From Candidatus Kuenenbacteria bacterium (lineage in GTDB: Bacteria > Patescibacteriota > Patescibacteriia > UBA2196 > GWA2-42-15), in NCBI GenBank assembly GCA_012797775.1, contig JAAZOM010000011.1, positions 1 to 54,821 on the forward strand: a stretch of DNA of 54,821 nt, given 5' to 3'. Positions 1,062 to 14,993 of this stretch are shown here, one piece after another. The stretch's first letter is position 1. Every line of letters starts with the position of its first letter. The notes under the pieces were generated by a model that saw only the letters and a program-made list of their open reading frames with translations, did not search any database and had not been told where the DNA came from. Made by a program: the position numbers and the translations under genes.

Positions 1062-1664
1062 TTATTCTTTGATCCCATCCAAGTTGACATCATAAAGTAT
1101 TTTGTCATGTGCCAGATTATAGCTCAAGATTTCATTATCATCAAACCACAATTTTATTTCTCTTTCTGCTTCTTCCGGTGATTCAGAACAGTGTACTAGG
1201 TTGCGGACCGCGCGGCCGGACAGGTTGGCCAGATCATAGGAATCAACAGTATAATCACCCCTAATAGTGCCGACGTCAGAGGTGGCCGGCTCTGTACCCC
1301 CGGTGATTTTGCGAACTACTGCCACGGCCTGATTGCCCTCAAAAACCATCGGGATAACCGGGCCGGCAGTCATAAATTCGACCAACTGCCTGACAATGTC
1401 TTTACCATATTCAACCGGCTCTTTTTCTGGGGTCAGACCTTTGTCCTTCATTTTACCGACGAGCATCTCGCCTTTCTCCAAAAACCACTTATCGTCTTTA
1501 TTATAATGAGACCACAGGGCTTCTTCTTTGGCCATCATAATTTTTATAGCAGCCAGGCGAAGGCCAGTTTGCTCAAAGCGTTTTACAATCTCCCCTATCA
1601 AGGCGCGCTGGACAGCGTCTGGTTTCAAAATGACAAGGGTTCTCTCTCTTTTTATAGCTGGCAT
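1062..1664 (-). CDS. ndk: Nucleoside diphosphate kinase, long form
   Basis: Transfers the gamma phosphate from NTPs to NDPs through a phosphohistidine. The N-terminus RTLVILKPDAVQR is the family signature; RNLVHCSES carries the catalytic His (H158) and IRGDYTVDSYDLANLSG precedes it. The protein is 200 aa against about 140-150 for the usual enzyme; the extra length is an insert at about residues 50-95 (WFLEKGEMLVGKMKDKG region) and a longer C-terminus. Such long NDKs are known from some archaea and candidate phyla. It is followed by its own terminator and is probably monocistronic. The ATG at 1664 directly precedes the conserved strand, so the start is secure. Confidence 0.93.
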   Translation of the reverse strand: MPAIKRERTLVILKPDAVQRALIGEIVKRFEQTGLRLAAIKIMMAKEEALWSHYNKDDKWFLEKGEMLVGKMKDKGLTPEKEPVEYGKDIVRQLVEFMTAGPVIPMVFEGNQAVAVVRKITGGTEPATSDVGTIRGDYTVDSYDLANLSGRAVRNLVHCSESPEEAEREIKLWFDDNEILSYNLAHDKILYDVNLDGIKE

Positions 1665-5981: not shown

Positions 5982-6043
5982 TGGTGGACCCTAGGGGGAT
6001 CGGTTCCTGGGTAGCGCACAAAAGTGCCGCTGGCACTTTTGAC
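5982..6043 (-). pseudogene. tRNA-Ala 3' remnant joined to a palindrome
   Basis: On the minus strand CGATCCCCCTAGGGTCCACCA (5982-6002) repeats the T-arm and acceptor end of tRNA-Ala(GGC). Immediately 5' of it the tRNA body is lost and replaced by sequence carrying CAAAAGTGCC-GCT-GGCACTTTTG (6021-6043). No functional tRNA can be folded. Confidence 0.7.
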
Positions 6044-6117: not shown

Positions 6118-6142
6118 AAAAAACAGCTATTTCTAGCTGTTT
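6118..6142 (-). terminator. Terminator of tRNA-Ala(GGC)
   Basis: AAACAGCT (6121-6128) pairs with AGCTGTTT (6135-6142); the minus strand ends in TTTTTT. It lies 10 bases after the tRNA 3' end. Confidence 0.75.
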
Positions 6143-6151
6143 AATATATAT

Positions 6152-6227
6152 TGGTGGACCCTAGGGGGATCGAACCCCTCACCTCTTCCATGCCATGGAA
6201 GCGCTCTACCAGATGAGCTAAGGGCCC
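6152..6227 (-). tRNA. tRNA-Ala(GGC)
   Basis: 76-nt cloverleaf with encoded CCA: acceptor GGGCCCT/AGGGTCC, D stem GCTC/GAGC, anticodon stem CTTCC/GGAAG with loop ATGGCAT (anticodon GGC), and TTCGATC T-loop. The stop codon of the GIY-YIG gene at 6228 is immediately adjacent to the first tRNA base, so the tRNA is transcribed directly after, and probably processed out of, that message. Confidence 0.93.
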
Positions 6228-6494
6228 TTATCTTAAACTTATACACCCACTTTTTATAATTTTCTCAATAATTTTCCGACTTTTTAATCTTTTAATTCTA
6301 TACTCTAGTCTTCTTGCCTCTTTAATATCTAACAAGGGATAAAACATAATCAGTTGCCACGGTCTTAGGCCCTTGGTTGATTTTACTAATCCAGCATTGT
6401 GCTCAATGAGTCTATGGTCGACATTTTTTGAGCTACCAACATAATAACTACTATTTTTTAAACTTTTTAGAACATAAACACCAATTTTGTTCAT
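6228..6494 (-). CDS. GIY-YIG endonuclease-domain protein abutting tRNA-Ala
   Basis: 88-aa single-domain GIY-YIG protein of the YhbQ/UPF0213 size class. Motifs in order: GVYVLKS (GIY), YYVGSSKNVDHRLIEHN (YIG, with the catalytic-type Arg in DHRL), STKGLRPWQLIMFYPL, and the Glu-containing KEARRLEYRIKRLKSR helix. GIY-YIG modules cut DNA in UvrC, homing endonucleases and small stand-alone proteins. The ATG at 6494 is preferred over an in-frame TTG at 6500. It starts inside the T-arm position of a broken tRNA-Ala and ends exactly at an intact tRNA-Ala. A homing-like relationship with the tRNA gene is an inference. Confidence 0.85.
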   Translation of the reverse strand: MNKIGVYVLKSLKNSSYYVGSSKNVDHRLIEHNAGLVKSTKGLRPWQLIMFYPLLDIKEARRLEYRIKRLKSRKIIEKIIKSGCISLR

Positions 6495-6500
6495 AAGCAA

Positions 6501-6562
6501 GTCCTCACCTCCCCGACAGCACCAAGCTTGTCGGGACGCTCTACCAGATGAGCTAAGGGCCC
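6501..6562 (-). pseudogene. Broken tRNA-Ala copy: 5' half plus foreign palindrome
   Basis: The minus strand starts GGGCCCTTAGCTCATCTGG and runs through the D arm (6562-6537), identical to tRNA-Ala(GGC). The anticodon arm is then replaced by CCCGACA-loop-TGTCGGG (6512-6535), followed by AGGTGAGG of the variable/T region, after which the GIY-YIG gene begins. The anticodon stem-loop and acceptor 3' end are missing, so no function as tRNA is possible. Confidence 0.85.
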
Positions 6563-6634
6563 AAAATATAATTATTATTATAAAGTATAATTGATGTAAA
6601 AAATAAAATCAAATTGGCTAATATAAAATAAATT

Positions 6635-6712
6635 CTGGTGGACTTACCGGGAATTGTCCCGAGATAAACTCGGGATGCCGACTTCATGTCGGCAAACCCG
6701 GAACCCGGTCCC
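6635..6712 (-). pseudogene. tRNA 3' remnant with two palindromes
   Basis: The minus strand ends CAATTCCCGGTAAGTCCACCA, a tRNA T-arm/acceptor 3' end with CCA. Upstream lie two perfect palindromes, TCCCGAG/CTCGGGA (6657-6675) and TGCCGAC/GTCGGCA (6676-6694), instead of tRNA arms. The 5' half of a tRNA is not recognisable. Confidence 0.6.
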
Positions 6713-6781
6713 TCACTTTTTCCAAAACAACAAATAAAAATACCCTTGCTAAAAAGTGGCGACTATTAATTCCCCTTGTTT

Positions 6782-6857
6782 TGGTGGACCAAGGGGGATT
6801 CGAACCCCCCACCTCGGCAATGCGAATGCCGCGCTCTACCAAATGAGCTATTGGCCC
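6782..6857 (-). tRNA. tRNA-Ala(CGC)
   Basis: 76-nt cloverleaf: acceptor GGGCCAA/TTGGTCC, D arm GCTC/GAGC, anticodon stem CGGCA/TGCCG with loop TTCGCAT (anticodon CGC), TTCGAAT T-loop and encoded CCA. It is closely related in D arm to tRNA-Ala(GGC). Confidence 0.93.
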
Positions 6858-6886
6858 ACTAAAATAAGGGTTTAAAAGTGTGGGAC

Positions 6887-6919
6887 GAATGCCGTGTTAT
6901 ACCGTTTAACTATAAGCCC
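6887..6919 (-). pseudogene. tRNA 5'-half remnant
   Basis: The minus strand GGGCTTATAGTTAAACGG followed by TATAACACGGCATTC looks like acceptor, D arm (GTTA/TAAC) and the start of an anticodon arm. The 3' half is absent: no complementary anticodon stem, T-loop or acceptor strand follows. The original isoacceptor cannot be assigned. Confidence 0.5.
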
Positions 6920-7307: not shown

Positions 7308-10300
7308 ATGATGTCCGAGATTTTTGGTGATAATCAAAAACAAACCCTAAAAAAAACTAACTTTGTTTTAAAGTCCGCTTTTTTTATAGCGGTTTTTATT
7401 TTATGTGGAAATATTATAGCCCTGAAAACCGGGCTAACAGAACAACTGTCAAAAATTTTTTACTACCCTATAGGAGGATCAGTGGCGGGGGAATATGCGG
7501 TGAGAATAGCGGCAGGAGATGAGCCCAACTGGAACCCCTCATACCCAAGGGTTACCTATGTTACCCCATCGGCAGACTCCTATTTCACTGGTTGCGCTGA
7601 GATCTCGGGAAACTTTGATGTGGTAGGCGTCTCTTATGGTAACTCTAGCTGTGCTCAAGCAATAAAAAATAAAAATAATCAGGTAATAATTTTTGGCCAA
7701 CTTAGAAGCGCGGTCTCTCTACTAGATGAGACACAAAAAGAGGATGATTTTGTCGATGTTTTGCCATATTTAGCCTTCAGAAGTGACGGCTACCAGCTAG
7801 CACAAGATGTGGCACCAAATACTACGGATGTTGATATAAAATTAAATAAAATTGACGGACTATCTACTGGCAATGGAAGATCTATTATTGTTGTTGGACC
7901 AAATAAGCTTAGTGATATTGACCAAATCGTAAACTACCCTGGGCTTGATCGTTTTTCTTATGCTTCAATAGATGCAGCTAATACGACGCTAAGGGGTGTT
8001 GGCGCTGGGCACGTAGATAAAAATTATAGTGCCGGTGATTATGTTATCCAGGTACCAAAAGTTGGGGGCTGGTTGGTAAATGTTTCCACAAGAAATCCAA
8101 CCTATAAAGACAATATAGCTTTTTATATTAATGATAAATACAAAAATGTTTCATCCTCTTATTTAAAATCTATAGATGCTATTTGGTATGATGCTTTCCG
8201 TTTTACCGGGGCCGAATCAGAGTTTGACAATGTGGATTTCAATCTTGATTTCGTGGCAGACACGCTGGCGGAAAAAACTAGCTCTTGGCAGGCTGGGCTG
8301 AAAGAAACATTTACCGCAGAAAAACAATATACTGGTAAAAAATATGTAATAACAAATGATGGTAATGGTGTGGTTCTCCCCAGCAGTGTAGCATCTTGGC
8401 ATGATGGTTTTATAGTTGAGTCTTGCATGTTCTATATAAATTCGTGGAATGACTATCTAAAAACACTCCAGGCGTGGAGCGATGCTGGGGATAGATTTAT
8501 CCTCTGCACTGATGAAAAATTTGATCCCTCTTATTGGACTGCTGAAAAAAAAGAGCGTTATAAAAATTATTTCAGCGACATGCGCTATGGCTTAACAACC
8601 AACACGATGGGAGATGCTTTCTATGGTCGTGAGGTTGGACAATACTACCAAATAAATCTTTGGTACGATGAGTACCAGACAGATTTGGGGTATCCGAAAA
8701 GTAAGGCACAAAAAATTAACAGCTTGTGCTTCAATGAAAAAATTGACTACACAACTTATGAACGTTGCCCATATGTCCGATTTTTTGACAATGGAGCGGC
8801 AATTGTTAACCCAACATTTAAAGATATAACAATAAAAGATAGTGATATAAAAGGTTTGGCTGGCTATGCCGGCCCATATTATAGATTTTATGGGGGGCAA
8901 TCTCCCACTGTTAATAATGGAAAGCAGTTGACGGATGGCGACCCCGTTGTTTTAACAGGACAGTATGCCGGCAATCCGGGCAAAGATGGAAAAAATAAGG
9001 GTGATGGAATTTTATTATTTAAAAAACCTGATTATTATGTAGTAGCCGATATTTTGGTCGGTAATTTTAATAATAATGATACATCTCCGGGGAGTAAGCC
9101 CGTCGAAACGACTGGCAGTTGGCCCAATGGCATAGATACTGGGGCGAAAACAAATCCTTATTTTTCACAATGGAACTGGGATGGTGATGAAGGTTGGGGA
9201 TATTTTTATACTACTGATCAAAGTGCTACGGCTACTTTCAGGCCAACCATTGGCATCGGTGGTGAGTATGAGGTTTTTGAGTGGCATGGCTGGGCCAACA
9301 ACGGTGGGGGTGGTGGGGAAGCTACAAATGTAAAAACAGAAATAAAACATGCCAACGGCACACAAAATACAACTATCAACCAGCGTGGCAACTATGGCAA
9401 GTGGAACAGTCTTGGAAAATTTATTTTTAATGCTGGTACTGATTGTTATGTAAAAATTTCAGCATCTGGGGCCGACGGAACCGTCTTGGCTGACGCGGTA
9501 AAATTTGTTTTTACCGGAAACTCCATACAACCACCACAACCACCGCCACCACCAGTTTGTAATAATAACGGTAACTGTGATGAACCTGGAGAAACAAATG
9601 CTAACTGCCCAAATGATTGCCCACCAGTCCCTAGCGGACAGTGCTATGCGGCGGATCATTTTTTAAACAGTACTTTAACTGATTTTAGTAAGTTTCATTT
9701 CAAGGGTGGCCCAGAAAAACAGGTTGATTTTCCAGATAATACTCATGCGCGCATACACCTAGAAGGAAGTATGAATAATCCAACTTCTGGAATCATTATG
9801 AAAAACGACATCCCTGCTGGCACGACTGACTTTGAAGTAAAAGTAGAGAGGTCTGGTCCGGAAGACGAAGTTGAAATTCTTTTCATGGAGGGCGATCCTG
9901 ATGCTTGTAAAAATTTTCTGATTGCCCTGCACCCGGTTTCCTTTGCCAATGCGGTCGGCAAAACAAGCCCAACTGGCTCAGCCGGACTAGGCTGCACCGA
10001 CAGCAACCAATGCAAGAGATTCTTAGAGATCCAATATTATGGTGATGGCACCAAGGGCACTAGCGCCGACAATTTGCCTGGCTATCCCAATTGTGATGAT
10101 GCAAACCCAAAAGAATTTGTCTTGGTCTCTGAACAAAGCAAGGTTGATAATTTGCTGGTATTAAAAGTGGTAAAACAAGGTTCGGTTTATGATATTTACA
10201 ATGATGACCAAAAAATCGGCACCTATACTGATTCAAAAAATCTTAATATTACCAAGGTGGCTGTGGTTAATCGCTCTAGTAACAGTCTAAAAAGTGACTA

Positions 10301-10580
10301 TGCAACAATTGGACCAATAGGCGTAGATTGCTTTACTAATAATACCAACTTAATGGCTGATCTAAACTGCGATGGCAGGGTGGACGTAATCGACCTTGGT
10401 GTTTTGCTTTCCTGTTGGCAGGATAATTTTAAAATAGGGTGTGTGAGCAGCTCGATAAGTTGTGACAAATCACCCGATATAAATATCGACGGTGCGGTCA
10501 ATATTGTTGATTTTGGGCTAATGCTTGGCTGCTGGGGCAATAATACTAGTGATAGTTGCAAGGCGCCCGTCTCGCCATAA
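7308..10580 (+). CDS. Giant secreted glycoside-hydrolase-like protein with golvesin, lectin-like and dockerin modules
   Basis: 1090 aa. An N-terminal hydrophobic segment (about residues 20-40) is followed by GGSVAGEYAVRIAAG, a motif shared with the next gene. Residues about 80-560 resemble a TIM-barrel hydrolase (AIWYDAFRF, FNLDFVADTL, WHDGFIVESCMF, RYGLTTNTMGDAFYG), closest in feel to GHL15-type putative hydrolases, but without a certain catalytic pair. Residues about 605-735 match the golvesin/xanthan-lyase C-terminal domain (GKWNSLGKFIFNAG, VLADAVKFVF). A CNNNGNCDEPGETNANCPND Cys motif, a LamG-like sandwich (780-1010) and a dockerin-like pair (DLNCDGRVDVIDLGVLLSCW, DINIDGAVNIVDFGLMLGCW; 1016-1085) follow. 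It is probably exported and attached to a partner via the dockerin. A TATAAT stands about 25 bases upstream. It is followed 27 bases later by a related gene. Confidence 0.75.
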   Translation: MMSEIFGDNQKQTLKKTNFVLKSAFFIAVFILCGNIIALKTGLTEQLSKIFYYPIGGSVAGEYAVRIAAGDEPNWNPSYPRVTYVTPSADSYFTGCAEISGNFDVVGVSYGNSSCAQAIKNKNNQVIIFGQLRSAVSLLDETQKEDDFVDVLPYLAFRSDGYQLAQDVAPNTTDVDIKLNKIDGLSTGNGRSIIVVGPNKLSDIDQIVNYPGLDRFSYASIDAANTTLRGVGAGHVDKNYSAGDYVIQVPKVGGWLVNVSTRNPTYKDNIAFYINDKYKNVSSSYLKSIDAIWYDAFRFTGAESEFDNVDFNLDFVADTLAEKTSSWQAGLKETFTAEKQYTGKKYVITNDGNGVVLPSSVASWHDGFIVESCMFYINSWNDYLKTLQAWSDAGDRFILCTDEKFDPSYWTAEKKERYKNYFSDMRYGLTTNTMGDAFYGREVGQYYQINLWYDEYQTDLGYPKSKAQKINSLCFNEKIDYTTYERCPYVRFFDNGAAIVNPTFKDITIKDSDIKGLAGYAGPYYRFYGGQSPTVNNGKQLTDGDPVVLTGQYAGNPGKDGKNKGDGILLFKKPDYYVVADILVGNFNNNDTSPGSKPVETTGSWPNGIDTGAKTNPYFSQWNWDGDEGWGYFYTTDQSATATFRPTIGIGGEYEVFEWHGWANNGGGGGEATNVKTEIKHANGTQNTTINQRGNYGKWNSLGKFIFNAGTDCYVKISASGADGTVLADAVKFVFTGNSIQPPQPPPPPVCNNNGNCDEPGETNANCPNDCPPVPSGQCYAADHFLNSTLTDFSKFHFKGGPEKQVDFPDNTHARIHLEGSMNNPTSGIIMKNDIPAGTTDFEVKVERSGPEDEVEILFMEGDPDACKNFLIALHPVSFANAVGKTSPTGSAGLGCTDSNQCKRFLEIQYYGDGTKGTSADNLPGYPNCDDANPKEFVLVSEQSKVDNLLVLKVVKQGSVYDIYNDDQKIGTYTDSKNLNITKVAVVNRSSNSLKSDYATIGPIGVDCFTNNTNLMADLNCDGRVDVIDLGVLLSCWQDNFKIGCVSSSISCDKSPDINIDGAVNIVDFGLMLGCWGNNTSDSCKAPVSP

Positions 10581-10607
10581 AAATATTTTGATAATTAAAA
10601 TTAGGGT

Positions 10608-13600
10608 ATGAAAAAAAATAAACAAAAAATAAATTGGAGTTTTTGTTTAAAGTCTTTTTTGGTGATTTTTGTTTTTATTATTACCTCAATGGTTTTACTT
10701 TATGGTTCGGGAATAACTGATCGGCTATCAAATTGTTTTTATGTAGAACAATATGGTGAAGTGGCTGGAGAATATAGTGTAAGGATGGCGGCAACACAAG
10801 TGAATACGCTAGCTATAAATCAAAATAATTTTACCATTAACGGACAAACATCTTTTCTTTTGGGGGCTTCCGTTTTCGATGCTATAAATTGGGACGAGAC
10901 AAAAATGGTTTCTGATTTGGATTATCTGGCACAAAATAATTATAATCTGATCCGTGTTTGGGCTGATTGGCAGTGGCAGGATGGGACTCAAAATAGTTCA
11001 CGTAATAGTACTGTATATGATACGACAAAAAAGGATGGCTCTCTAGACACAATAAAAATTGAAAAACTCAAAAGAATAATAGACGCGGCAAAGACCAGGG
11101 GAATTATAGTTGACTTGGTTATTACTGATTTTAATCCATCTTATTATGTAGATGGAGAGTCCTTACAAAGTTTGTTGTCAAAACACCAAAAAGCGGCTAC
11201 CAACATAACCACTGCCTTACAAGGAAAACCAAATTTGTTTTTTGATTTAATGAACGAGCATGATAATAATGGCAGTAGCTCTTATCTGCCTTTCCCTAGT
11301 CATGATGACATAAAAAAAATCGCCGAAGCTGTGCGAGCGGCTGACGGCTCTAGATATATTACTGTTTCCAACCGAGGCAATACATCTATGGTACAAACAC
11401 AAATAGTTGATGAGTTATCAAAAACCAATAACCCTTTTTATACCCCACATTTTAGCAGAACCTCCGACTGGTGGAGTAGTACAGGAGAGAGAATCGGGGC
11501 TGTTAAAACTATTTTAAATAATATGTCCCCAGTAAGGAATATTCCCATCTACCTGCAAGAAGAACAAAATTTTGGCGATGATCCTACACAGAGCCACTTT
11601 GTAGAGGCGGCCAAACAAGCCAAAAATAACAATGCGGCGGGGTGGGTCTTCCATCAAACCGCTGGCTTTGATCTAAAAAATAGCAAATCATTTAAAGACC
11701 AGCTCGGTGATAATGGGAGAGCAACCCTTGAAGCTATTGGAGCGGCTGTGGGGACTCCAGGCGGGCCGACTGGAGATTGTAATATAAAAACAGATGTGAA
11801 TTTTTGGTCTGTTTCTAATGGTAATGACTTCAAAGAAATACCTATTTGTAATAGTTCTCAGGCTGGGTATGTTGAGTTTGAGGTTTCTGGAATAAGTCTT
11901 GATAATATGCCACTAAAAACTGGTTATTCTGTTTTTACGATTTTGGATAAAAGCGGAGTTAACAACCCCTATGAAACAAGCCAAAATCCAAATTATATAA
12001 CACTAAAAATCTTGGGACAAGGATATGGTGGGGAGTATCCAGGAATGATTCATTATCGATCAAATATAAACAACACTTGTGATTATATGCAATGCCATCA
12101 TGAAAATGATGGGGTAAAGGGCTCAAGGTGTAGCGATGACACTGACTCCCCCTCTGATCAGTGCCCACCGGCGTGGGAATGGTACGGTGATTTTCCTTAC
12201 GAACCATGGGAAAATAAAACCCACAAATTTAGAATAGAGTGGGGCGCGGGAAGCAACAACAAACATTTGATTTATAAATATTGGTCCAACGGCACTTGGC
12301 AAACATTAAAAGATTGGGATCCTGGCCAAATAACCAATGCAAAATATCAAAACTTTGGCTGGCTAGCAGATAATATGGTTTTAAGATTGGGCAATAGTAC
12401 AATGTACCCGGGTATAAAGGGGTCTATATATAAAAACATAACAGTAAAAACAACCAGCCCCGGCACTACCCCAAAAAAATGCGTGGCTGATTTGGCTGGG
12501 AAAATTTGCCAACCAAATCAGACCTGCTCGACTGGGAACTTTGCTACGGCTAGTGATACAAATTATTGTTGCGTGGGCGGGACGTGTCAGGGTGGCTGCT
12601 CAGCCGGCTACTCTTATTGCAAGCTGGGGAAAATGTGCGCGAGTGATCGATGGTATTATAATACGCCAACAACCGAATGCTGCGCCACGAATTGCATGAC
12701 AATGCCAAGAATAAGTAATTTCCCTGTCCAACTACCTCCTTATTTAAATACTGATAAATCAAAATATGATTTGAATATTGGCACAGCCGACAATCAAGTT
12801 GATTTGTTTATAAATTATAATACAACGCTACAAAACAATGCATTGGCTCCTTTGAGCCAAATACTAATAACCCCAGCTTCCCCGGTGCCGAGTGCCCCAA
12901 CAAATGAAAAAGTAATAAAGGCCTACAATTTTGGTTTGGGTGGGGCGCAATTTGATCCACCAATAAAATTGGCCTTTAATTATACCAACGCAGAAATGAC
13001 CGGGATTGTCGAAAGTAGTTTATATATCGGACTGTGGGATAGCGGTAATAATAAATGGATAAAACAAACAACTAGCTTGGACCAAGCAAATAATAAAGCC
13101 GAGGCACAAATCTCTCATTTTTCTATCTATGGATTACTGGGAGGATTGCTTTGTGGTAATGGTACTTGTGACACTGGGGAAAATAGTATAAATTGCCCGG
13201 CTGATTGTCCACCTACTCCCCAAATTAATTGTGGAAATGGGATCTGCGAGGGTGGCGAGACAAATGCCAATTGCCCGGCTGACTGCCCGACAGGCGGTGG
13301 CTCGGCAGATTTGATAAAAATAGATGACAACGCTAGGAATCCAGCCGTGGTAGTCGATAGTATGGGAAACCTACATGTGGCATACGACTGTGTTAGCGCT
13401 GGTGGAGTTTGTTATAGAAAAATTTATCAGGAAATGGGACAAATCAAAAAGGGCCCGGTAATACCCCTAGCCTCTGGGACCAATGACCCAAGGGTTGGGA
13501 TAACAGATGGCGACCAGATACATATCGTCACTGCAGTCAAATATATAGTCATTGAACCAGACGGGACCATAATAAAAAAGGATTTGCCCGCCTTAAATAG

Positions 13601-14993
13601 CCCAAGGCTGGCGTTAAGTACAAAAAACCCTGGGGAGGCATATGTTCTGTATCGGGAGACTGATCGTTATGGGGCTATAAAAATGAAAAAGATAAAGGCC
13701 TCTGGTGGTACTATTAGTGAGGAGGCAACAATAACAGTAAATGATAAATGTTCAAAACCACAAATGCCAGGAAATGTTGTGGTTGACAAGGATGATGTCG
13801 TCCATTTGACCTGGCGTCAATTTGGAGATAGTGACTCGATTTGTCCGGGGAGAAATGTCCAATATATACAATACAAAAATAATTCTTTCGTAAACAAGAA
13901 AGAGATTTTTGGCGCCACTAGCGATTATACCGACATGGAACTAAATGAAGCAACTGGAGAATTTCATATGATTGCAACTACCCCCCAAGGCACCTGTGGC
14001 TTGGCTTATCGCACAATGGATATGGGTGGCAACTTAAGCCCAATATATTATCTATATTTACCTTATGGTATAACCTATGCTTGCACCAAGCCGGCTGGAG
14101 AAACGGCCAGCTATATAATAAGCGGTGCGGCGGACAGGCGTGGTGAGGCGAATATTACTGCTCCGTATATGTCTTTTGAAAATGATGGAAAATTACACAT
14201 TGCTTTTATTGGTGCTGGCACACAAATAAGACCAGACACCATAGAAGATGCACTAAAAAATGTTTATTGGGAGGTAGATAATATAGACCCCAATAGTATG
14301 CCAGTGCCAAATTCTTCTGACCTAGAGCAACTAAAGGCCAGGTGGCTTTCTCAAAACTCCGGCAAGACAACTAATGATTATATAGAAATGTTGAATGAAG
14401 AAATTTTTTGTTGGAATAATCCTGCCTCCTATTTATCAGCAAAAGGATGCTATTATTATACTGCTTATCATACTGTTTTGGATAAAGCGACCCTGAAGTC
14501 AGACACGCCTCCTGGTGGGGATGCCCCAAACAATATCCCAACTCCGGAAAAATTTACTCCAGAAAGAACAAAAGAAAGCGACCAGGGGAGCGATGCGAGC
14601 AATCCAATCATTGACAAGGCCTGGAATCAGGGAGTGTTTATGGTTTTTGAAGATGATTATGAAAATCCAAAATTTAATATTTATCTAAAAGCGGTGGGTG
14701 GAGCTGTGATCGGCATACCACAAATGAAAGCTGATCTAAACTGCAGCGGCAAGGTGGATGTGGTAGATCTTGGTATTTTGATGTCTTGCTGGGGAAATAA
14801 TTATGATCAATACAGTCCTCAATCCTGTGCCTTGGGGGCTAATATAAAAGCTGCTTGCAAAAGGCCTATAAATATTGATGGCCTAACAGGCTCTGATGGT
14901 AAAGAAACTATTGATATTAGTGATTTTTCAATTATGATGGGCTGTTGGGGGGTAAATAATAGCCCCCAATGTTTCGCTGTTATTGGTCCGTAA
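10608..14993 (+). CDS. Giant secreted GH5-like hydrolase with Cys-rich repeats, propeller-like region and dockerin
   Basis: 1461 aa. Signal/anchor (about 15-35), then GEVAGEYSVRMAAT as in the gene upstream. Residues about 60-390 form a GH5-like TIM barrel: NNYNLIRVWADWQWQDG, LFFDLMNEHDN with the acid/base Glu after Asn (E217), and IPIYLQEEQNFG with the expected nucleophile Glu (E318 or E319), WVFHQTAGF last strand. Next come a beta domain with LPPAWEWYGD-like segments, a Cys-rich stretch (about 622-700), two CGNGxCDxGExxxNCPxDCP repeats (about 845-895), a propeller-like region with VVDxxGNLHVAY/VVDKDDVVHLTW repeats (about 905-1260) and a two-repeat dockerin (DLNCSGKVDVVDLGILMSCW). Likely acts on glycans outside the cell together with the previous protein. 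Confidence 0.8.
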   Translation: MKKNKQKINWSFCLKSFLVIFVFIITSMVLLYGSGITDRLSNCFYVEQYGEVAGEYSVRMAATQVNTLAINQNNFTINGQTSFLLGASVFDAINWDETKMVSDLDYLAQNNYNLIRVWADWQWQDGTQNSSRNSTVYDTTKKDGSLDTIKIEKLKRIIDAAKTRGIIVDLVITDFNPSYYVDGESLQSLLSKHQKAATNITTALQGKPNLFFDLMNEHDNNGSSSYLPFPSHDDIKKIAEAVRAADGSRYITVSNRGNTSMVQTQIVDELSKTNNPFYTPHFSRTSDWWSSTGERIGAVKTILNNMSPVRNIPIYLQEEQNFGDDPTQSHFVEAAKQAKNNNAAGWVFHQTAGFDLKNSKSFKDQLGDNGRATLEAIGAAVGTPGGPTGDCNIKTDVNFWSVSNGNDFKEIPICNSSQAGYVEFEVSGISLDNMPLKTGYSVFTILDKSGVNNPYETSQNPNYITLKILGQGYGGEYPGMIHYRSNINNTCDYMQCHHENDGVKGSRCSDDTDSPSDQCPPAWEWYGDFPYEPWENKTHKFRIEWGAGSNNKHLIYKYWSNGTWQTLKDWDPGQITNAKYQNFGWLADNMVLRLGNSTMYPGIKGSIYKNITVKTTSPGTTPKKCVADLAGKICQPNQTCSTGNFATASDTNYCCVGGTCQGGCSAGYSYCKLGKMCASDRWYYNTPTTECCATNCMTMPRISNFPVQLPPYLNTDKSKYDLNIGTADNQVDLFINYNTTLQNNALAPLSQILITPASPVPSAPTNEKVIKAYNFGLGGAQFDPPIKLAFNYTNAEMTGIVESSLYIGLWDSGNNKWIKQTTSLDQANNKAEAQISHFSIYGLLGGLLCGNGTCDTGENSINCPADCPPTPQINCGNGICEGGETNANCPADCPTGGGSADLIKIDDNARNPAVVVDSMGNLHVAYDCVSAGGVCYRKIYQEMGQIKKGPVIPLASGTNDPRVGITDGDQIHIVTAVKYIVIEPDGTIIKKDLPALNSPRLALSTKNPGEAYVLYRETDRYGAIKMKKIKASGGTISEEATITVNDKCSKPQMPGNVVVDKDDVVHLTWRQFGDSDSICPGRNVQYIQYKNNSFVNKKEIFGATSDYTDMELNEATGEFHMIATTPQGTCGLAYRTMDMGGNLSPIYYLYLPYGITYACTKPAGETASYIISGAADRRGEANITAPYMSFENDGKLHIAFIGAGTQIRPDTIEDALKNVYWEVDNIDPNSMPVPNSSDLEQLKARWLSQNSGKTTNDYIEMLNEEIFCWNNPASYLSAKGCYYYTAYHTVLDKATLKSDTPPGGDAPNNIPTPEKFTPERTKESDQGSDASNPIIDKAWNQGVFMVFEDDYENPKFNIYLKAVGGAVIGIPQMKADLNCSGKVDVVDLGILMSCWGNNYDQYSPQSCALGANIKAACKRPINIDGLTGSDGKETIDISDFSIMMGCWGVNNSPQCFAVIGP

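Follow-up and report, generated by a model that had tools for sequence, protein, structure and literature searches.

A GIY-YIG nuclease gene between a broken and an intact tRNA-Ala points to a widespread kind of selfish DNA in bacterial tRNA genes

Why should a gene for an 88-residue nuclease stand between two copies of the same tRNA gene, one in pieces and the other complete? The question is raised by a locus in the window, by which we mean the whole stretch of 54,821 nucleotides analysed here, from a Candidatus Kuenenbacteria bacterium with a genome of 930 kb in 31 contigs; related loci bear Patescibacteria names. Read along the minus strand, the locus consists of a promoter, nt 1-26 of tRNA-Ala(GGC), a palindrome, nt 43-51 of the same tRNA, a GIY-YIG open reading frame (ORF) and its stop codon. 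An intact tRNA-Ala(GGC), a terminator and a 3' fragment (nt 56-76) follow.

The tRNA-Ala genes of the window

6886..6919, minus: probable 5' remnant of another tRNA-Ala type (GGGCTTATAG..., as in genomes G006 and G007), 27/34 identical to the G007 tRNA
6782..6857, minus: intact tRNA-Ala(CGC), with remnants on both sides
6636..6716, minus: probable 3' remnant of the other tRNA-Ala type, with two T-loop palindromes
6584..6612, minus: promoter-like site TTGATT-17-TATACT, 9/12 consensus matches, upstream of the broken tRNA-Ala
6537..6562, minus: 5' fragment of tRNA-Ala(GGC), nt 1-26, 100% identical to the intact copy
6512..6536, minus: palindrome TCCCGACAAGCTTGGTGCTGTCGGG, spanning 25 nt and replacing the anticodon arm, with a compensatory stem change in the sister species
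6503..6511, minus: tRNA-Ala nt 43-51 (GAGGTGAGG), the end of the 5' remnant
6228..6494, minus: GIY-YIG nuclease ORF, 88 aa from an ATG start; an alternative TTG at 6500 gives 90 aa
6152..6227, minus: intact tRNA-Ala(GGC), the sole full copy in the genome
6121..6142, minus: terminator hairpin 3' of the intact tRNA-Ala(GGC), from a terminator scan
6020..6040, minus: palindrome AAAAGTGCCAGCGGCACTTTT within the downstream remnant
5982..6002, minus: 3' fragment of tRNA-Ala(GGC), nt 56-76, 100% identity, E 1.1e-4

The broken copy retains nt 1-26 and nt 43-51, so that the anticodon arm (nt 27-42) is absent and the palindrome takes its place. The TAA of the ORF ends at 6228 and the intact tRNA starts at 6227, with zero gap. 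A BLAST search of tRNA-Ala(GGC) against its own genome returned one full copy, the 5' fragment and the 3' fragment. Since the two fragments jointly cover most of one tRNA without overlap, a single native gene has apparently been split around the ORF and the complete tRNA. The 3' fragment is followed by its own terminator (5972-5949); for the terminator at 6121..6142, the scan scored the palindrome on the plus strand, and the minus strand likewise has a T run after the hairpin. The sequence-only reading had laid out the minus strand from 6152 to 6562 as broken tRNA-Ala, palindrome, ORF and intact copy. Every one of these elements was found at its coordinates, whereas the 3' fragment at 6002-5982 had been overlooked; the description of the native tRNA as a surviving 5' part thus needs the refinement that both ends may survive.

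The sister species (G001) has an orthologous locus with a matching arrangement, in which the palindrome stem carries a compensatory change. By eye, it also has identical promoter hexamers with the same spacing upstream of its broken tRNA-Ala, and in the window the promoter-like site probably serves nuclease ORF and intact tRNA jointly. The sister's copy of the nuclease carries a frameshift, a sign of decay, and the same genome retains a broken tRNA-Met without an ORF.

The ORF matches the Pfam GIY-YIG family (PF01541, 2e-13), its sole Pfam match, with the domain spanning residues 5-74 of 89. The catalytic residues Y7, Y18, G20, R28, H32 and E64 are invariant among 16 proteins, and the nearest solved structure is 1zg2. 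Its best curated matches are homing endonucleases, below the NCBIfam cut-off; TIGR01453 is matched in its first 37 of 215 positions alone, also below cut-off. Pfam and NCBIfam identified no separate DNA-binding region beyond the catalytic domain in the 88-residue protein. Substitutions relative to the sister species fall 19/16/41 by codon position, and this third-position excess argues that the nuclease is under purifying selection at the protein level. Searches of viruses, phages and plasmids returned distant relatives at best, and the phage relative examined has no annotated tRNA nearby.

An uninterrupted tRNA-Ala allele is found in G006, where an Arg(CCT)-Ala(CGC)-Ala(GGC) cluster occurs without a nuclease, with 59 nt between the Ala genes and an Ala(GGC) that is 99% identical. 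The nuclease-free Ala(CGC)-Ala(GGC) pair recurs in G003, G007 and G010. An empty site with different tRNA neighbours would have counted against the insertion, as stated at the outset; the neighbours are the same. A second empty site concerns tRNA-Asn, which follows rpoD as a plain gene in G008, while in the window genome rpoD is followed by a broken tRNA-Asn, a GIY-YIG gene and tRNA-Asn. In the sister species, a probable group I intron (49.9 bits, cut-off 50) with an HNH-like ORF interrupts the anticodon loop of the rpoD-linked tRNA-Asn (locus L300), upstream of which lie two broken copies of tRNA-Asn in tandem.

The neighbouring tRNA-Ala(CGC) is itself possibly a replacement without a surviving ORF. 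The remnants that flank it on the minus strand (6636-6919) suggest a second, older replacement, with modest similarity and hence weaker evidence at 6886..6919, upstream of the intact tRNA; the sister species has the same 3' remnant with different palindromes. In G007 (locus L317, 1673-1743), a complete and different tRNA-Ala(CGC), flanked by an inverted repeat, lies within the anticodon loop of a broken tRNA-Ala(CGC); this host tRNA is palindrome-broken and no nuclease is present there. Elsewhere in the window, two large predicted secreted proteins (7308-14993, plus strand) end in repeats that by eye resemble dockerin-type calcium-binding repeats, and a nucleoside diphosphate kinase of 200 aa (1062-1664, minus strand) matches Pfam in two stretches, which suggests an internal insertion.

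Recurrence at other tRNAs and in other phyla

The window genome holds seven PF01541 matches, one of them UvrC-like. Five of the remaining six small GIY-YIG genes stand at five tRNAs (Gln, Met, Asn, Cys and Ala). At four of these the intact tRNA lies directly 3' of the ORF, with the 5' part of the same tRNA and a palindrome upstream, and the Cys locus is reversed: the intact tRNA is upstream of the ORF and the palindrome-interrupted 3' part downstream. This count, together with the orthologous arrangement in the sister species, excludes chance.

Among 77 GIY-YIG loci drawn from the window genome and its same-class relatives (nearly all of one class), a tRNA lay within 400 nt in 27, nearly always on the same strand, and the other 50 genes had no tRNA nearby. 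For the 71 loci from relatives, a same-strand tRNA was counted by eye within 60 nt in 12, versus 0/29 DUF559 controls (p 0.012). The scan of named genomes used a three-protein alignment, alignment A1 being too diverse for collection scans, so that its 80 loci represent one subfamily and not all GIY-YIG genes; within that subfamily, 66 loci have a tRNA within 400 nt, versus 3/29 for the DUF559 control (Fisher p 5e-12), and several further loci hold tRNA fragments overlooked by the tRNA finder. The 80 loci span Bacteroidota, Patescibacteria, Omnitrophota, Ignavibacteriota, Planctomycetota and others. As the carriers include cultured isolates (Chryseotalea, Mangrovibacterium, Pedobacter, Algoriphagus, Flagellimonas and Salinimicrobium), metagenomics cannot have produced the arrangement; on the same ground, and because the sister species has it independently, an assembly artefact was rejected too. 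A look for the same arrangement in related genomes had been suggested as a check; it occurs at many tRNAs and in many phyla, and the opposite outcome, in which relatives' GIY-YIG genes show no link to tRNAs, did not appear.

Two mirror types were found: 5' remnant, ORF and intact tRNA; or intact tRNA, ORF and 3' remnant. In 39/68 and 13/23 loci, the opposite side of the ORF from the intact tRNA held a copy of it that scored above the 99% level of a cross-locus null; both tRNA ends are kept in only 8 of 91. The stop codon of the ORF often lies inside the intact tRNA, which would leave no space for a separate promoter between them. In the window, the GIY-YIG gene is the only ORF between the tRNA copies, without a site-specific recombinase. 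Two other explanations were rejected: split tRNAs joined in trans, given that an intact copy is present, and group I introns, since no Intron_gpI match at or above the gathering score was found in the window or in the 18 element loci scanned.

Some loci present other combinations. Seven (L001, L042, L052, L060, L085, L092 and L104) have GIY-YIG genes without tRNAs, several of them with palindromic repeats of the GTCATTC...GAATCT type on both flanks, possibly another nuclease-palindrome pair. At L201, about 480 nt separate a GIY-YIG gene with the CCTGCC palindrome from a downstream group I intron. At L139 and L140, in two genomes, DUF559 nuclease genes lie between tRNA-Leu(TAA) and tRNA-Phe/Met, and may possibly represent another nuclease family at tRNAs.

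The nuclease tree comprises 157 proteins over 85 columns and has many unresolved forks, so that it shows clustering and not detailed history. A supported clade of 17 is associated exclusively with tRNA-Leu, where a tRNA was found, in hosts from Bacteroidota, Patescibacteria lineages and Omnitrophota; another clade of 10 is exclusive to tRNA-Arg, and small Ser and Met clades also occur. Mapped on the tree, isotype requires 38 changes, versus a mean of 55.8 and a minimum of 51 in 300 shuffles. Within the named genomes, isotype clusters strongly (16 changes versus 26.9 shuffled, minimum 22) and host phylum weakly (17 versus 19.7, minimum 18). As far as these alignments can tell, nuclease clades follow tRNA isotype more than host phylum. 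Both the 5'-side and the 3'-side arrangement occur within one clade, a mixture that a single cut site fails to account for.

The clearest case of exchange concerns tRNA-Leu(CAA), intact in the window genome and broken by two palindromes in the sister species, where the promoter flank (42/48) and the fragment (41/42) remain close to the intact gene. The order there is broken native tRNA-Leu, GIY-YIG ORF and a different tRNA-Leu, which has another acceptor stem and is 77/86 identical to the native tRNA and 83/84 to that of G002. By this comparison the intact tRNA-Leu is a replacement of the native one, probably acquired together with the nuclease. In the window and at many other loci the intact copy is identical to the 5' fragment, so that replacement and partial duplication look the same there. 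The initial view of an insertion into a tRNA gene with a complete copy restored is therefore well backed by the recurrence, the empty sites and the isotype-tracking clades, with the amendment that the complete tRNA may be a replacement of different sequence and not a duplicate.

A selfish element and its rival explanations

Among the features observed directly at the loci are these: the native tRNA is left in pieces, a 5' part with the promoter and sometimes a 3' part with the terminator; and the nuclease ORF lies between remnant and complete tRNA, its stop codon touching or inside that tRNA. We propose that a free-standing GIY-YIG homing nuclease and a tRNA gene together form a small selfish element inside a native tRNA gene, with a probability of roughly 0.7. 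Mechanistically, the nuclease would cut the tRNA gene of an unoccupied allele and recombinational repair would copy the element in; the captured tRNA promoter would transcribe nuclease and tRNA together, and RNase P would free the tRNA. The broken tRNA would in this way be restored or replaced by the element, whose working tRNA, carried or rebuilt, would keep the invaded cell alive. Later the nuclease may decay, as in the sister species. Both DNA cleavage and mobility are inferred here, and a protein that is little more than a GIY-YIG domain counts against the homing model.

The palindromes give rise to the strongest rival. Remnants are broken by clean inserts, mostly hairpins, without target duplication, located in the D-loop (29), the anticodon region (11) or the T-loop (5). 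Palindrome similarity drops with nuclease distance (Mantel r -0.27, p 0.001), and this co-variation holds between different isotypes and hosts (p 0.001). The palindrome of the window does sit in the place of the anticodon arm, as first described, but it is not specific to the locus; its family goes with the nuclease clade. The commonest palindrome, CCTGCCTGCCGGCAGGCAGG, has 0-19 copies per relative, some away from tRNAs, and G039 has a single copy, inside a broken tRNA-Leu. Palindromes could thus be the mobile unit and the GIY-YIG protein their mobilising enzyme, as RAYT is for REP, with tRNA loops as preferred landing sites. This reading would account for a palindrome family that tracks the nuclease clade across isotypes and hosts (Mantel p 0.001), for the clean inserts and the dispersed copies, and for another GIY-YIG clade flanked by GTCATTC...GAATCT repeats without a tRNA. 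Palindrome movement itself has no direct evidence, however, and alone it leaves both the isotype matching and the complete adjoining tRNA unexplained, and we consider it unlikely. An interpretation of the palindrome as the mark of a single nuclease cut site was not adopted, as within one clade the D, anticodon and T loops all harbour palindromes. Under the selfish-element model, palindromes probably prevent renewed cutting, folding or recombinational loss of the leftover tRNA copy.

Alternatively, the loci could be ordinary debris, in which tandem tRNA duplicates decay and gather palindromes while unrelated mobile GIY-YIG genes land among them. Clusters of tRNAs are recombinogenic, ORF-less remnants exist, and the same palindrome families are found away from tRNAs too. 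Debris would not be expected to show remnant, ORF and tRNA time and again in the same order, on the same strand and in register, nor to keep an ORF that appears to be under purifying selection; the DUF559 control lacks close tRNAs, and the match between nuclease clade and tRNA isotype counts strongly against this explanation, which we judge quite improbable.

Isotype specificity, and a replacement tRNA-Leu that differs from the native one in the sister species, would also suit a tRNA-directed ribonuclease toxin: a GIY-YIG protein that attacks the tRNA molecule, with an immune version of that tRNA encoded next to it. Such a toxin is highly improbable: where intact tRNA and remnant can be matched, they often have the same sequence; the top curated matches go to homing endonucleases, although with scores under the NCBIfam cut-off; and a toxin would not account for broken copies both before and after the ORF. 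Least credible of all is that the broken tRNA and its palindrome are retained as a structured 5' leader regulating nuclease expression, an idea that fits the remnant always lying upstream of the ORF in one type and the stem preserved via a compensatory change in the sister species, but not the mirror type, with its remnant downstream, nor the isotype matching and the empty sites; a leader function in addition to homing could still exist.

Returning to the selfish element, a stronger version can be formulated. In bacteria, the element may act as a natural cleave-and-rescue gene drive: its nuclease would destroy the native essential tRNA gene and carry a working, sometimes differently coded copy, cells taking it up would become dependent on it, and nuclease, isotype and palindrome would travel together between phyla. 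We put this forward as a tentative proposition, with the odds somewhat against it.

Relation to known systems

The arrangement points to a widespread and apparently undescribed kind of selfish DNA; a search of the literature outside subscription papers and preprints found no description of it in bacteria. If the proposal is true, the abundance of small GIY-YIG genes in Patescibacteria and Bacteroidota would have an explanation: they would be selfish elements that turn over essential tRNA genes and are able to put foreign ones in their place, a natural counterpart to cleave-and-rescue gene drives. Many natural target sites would also be at hand for learning how an 88-residue nuclease selects its tRNA, and palindromic repeats of no known source would gain a candidate enzyme partner.

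Group I introns with homing endonucleases invade bacterial tRNA genes, and the tRNA is rescued by self-splicing. They are likewise endonuclease-bearing invaders of tRNA genes, with a probable case (HNH ORF) in the rpoD-linked tRNA-Asn of the sister species, whereas no catalytic intron surrounds the GIY-YIG ORFs in the window and the 18 loci scanned. Elements with tRNA-targeting tyrosine integrases also enter tRNA genes, and one of their junctions regenerates a complete tRNA; here there is neither integrase nor attachment-site cargo, and an element of about 400 nt has a GIY-YIG nuclease instead. In RAYT systems, a Y1 (HUH) transposase gene is associated with its own family of dispersed REP palindromes. 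The present loci share a palindrome family specific to an enzyme clade, a likeness judged by palindrome-enzyme co-variation alone, and differ in having a GIY-YIG nuclease and no Y1 (HUH) transposase.

Among GIY-YIG enzymes, SegB of phages T4 and T6 is a free-standing homing endonuclease that cuts inside tRNA genes (PMC13096335, citing Brok-Volchanskaya 2008). In the account given there, SegB often adjoins tRNAs, and the tRNA 5' end shares microhomology with the 3' end of the segB gene (PMC13096335). Common to both are a GIY-YIG domain with its catalytic residues, a location outside introns and inteins, and linkage to tRNA genes (66/80 loci here). The passages on SegB in that source place it in phage tRNA arrays and describe no broken-plus-replacement arrangement or palindromes; they report no isotype preference, whereas the clades here are isotype-specific (PMC13096335). 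The window protein also differs in its lack of a further DNA-binding region.

The logic is the same as in the mobile ORF elements (mORFs) of fungal mitochondria, known from Glomus atp6, atp9, cox2 and nad3 and from Allomyces atp6 (PMC3630166). According to the part of that source devoted to them, a free-standing endonuclease lies in an essential gene and brings a replacement of the displaced part, the native part being dead; the divergence of the replacement suggests horizontal transfer, and the atp9 mORF enzyme is a GIY-YIG protein (PMC3630166). mORFs reside in mitochondrial protein genes and are mostly LAGLIDADG, unlike the bacterial tRNA genes considered here, and palindromes in the dead copy do not figure in that description (PMC3630166). 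Both share a replacement gene part beside the nuclease and a dead native part, represented here by the intact tRNA and the tRNA remnants. A replacement that differs from the native gene is found at the tRNA-Leu of the sister species, while the identical copies of the window do not allow this to be judged there. These tRNA loci would accordingly be bacterial examples of a gene replacement hitherto known from fungal mitochondria.
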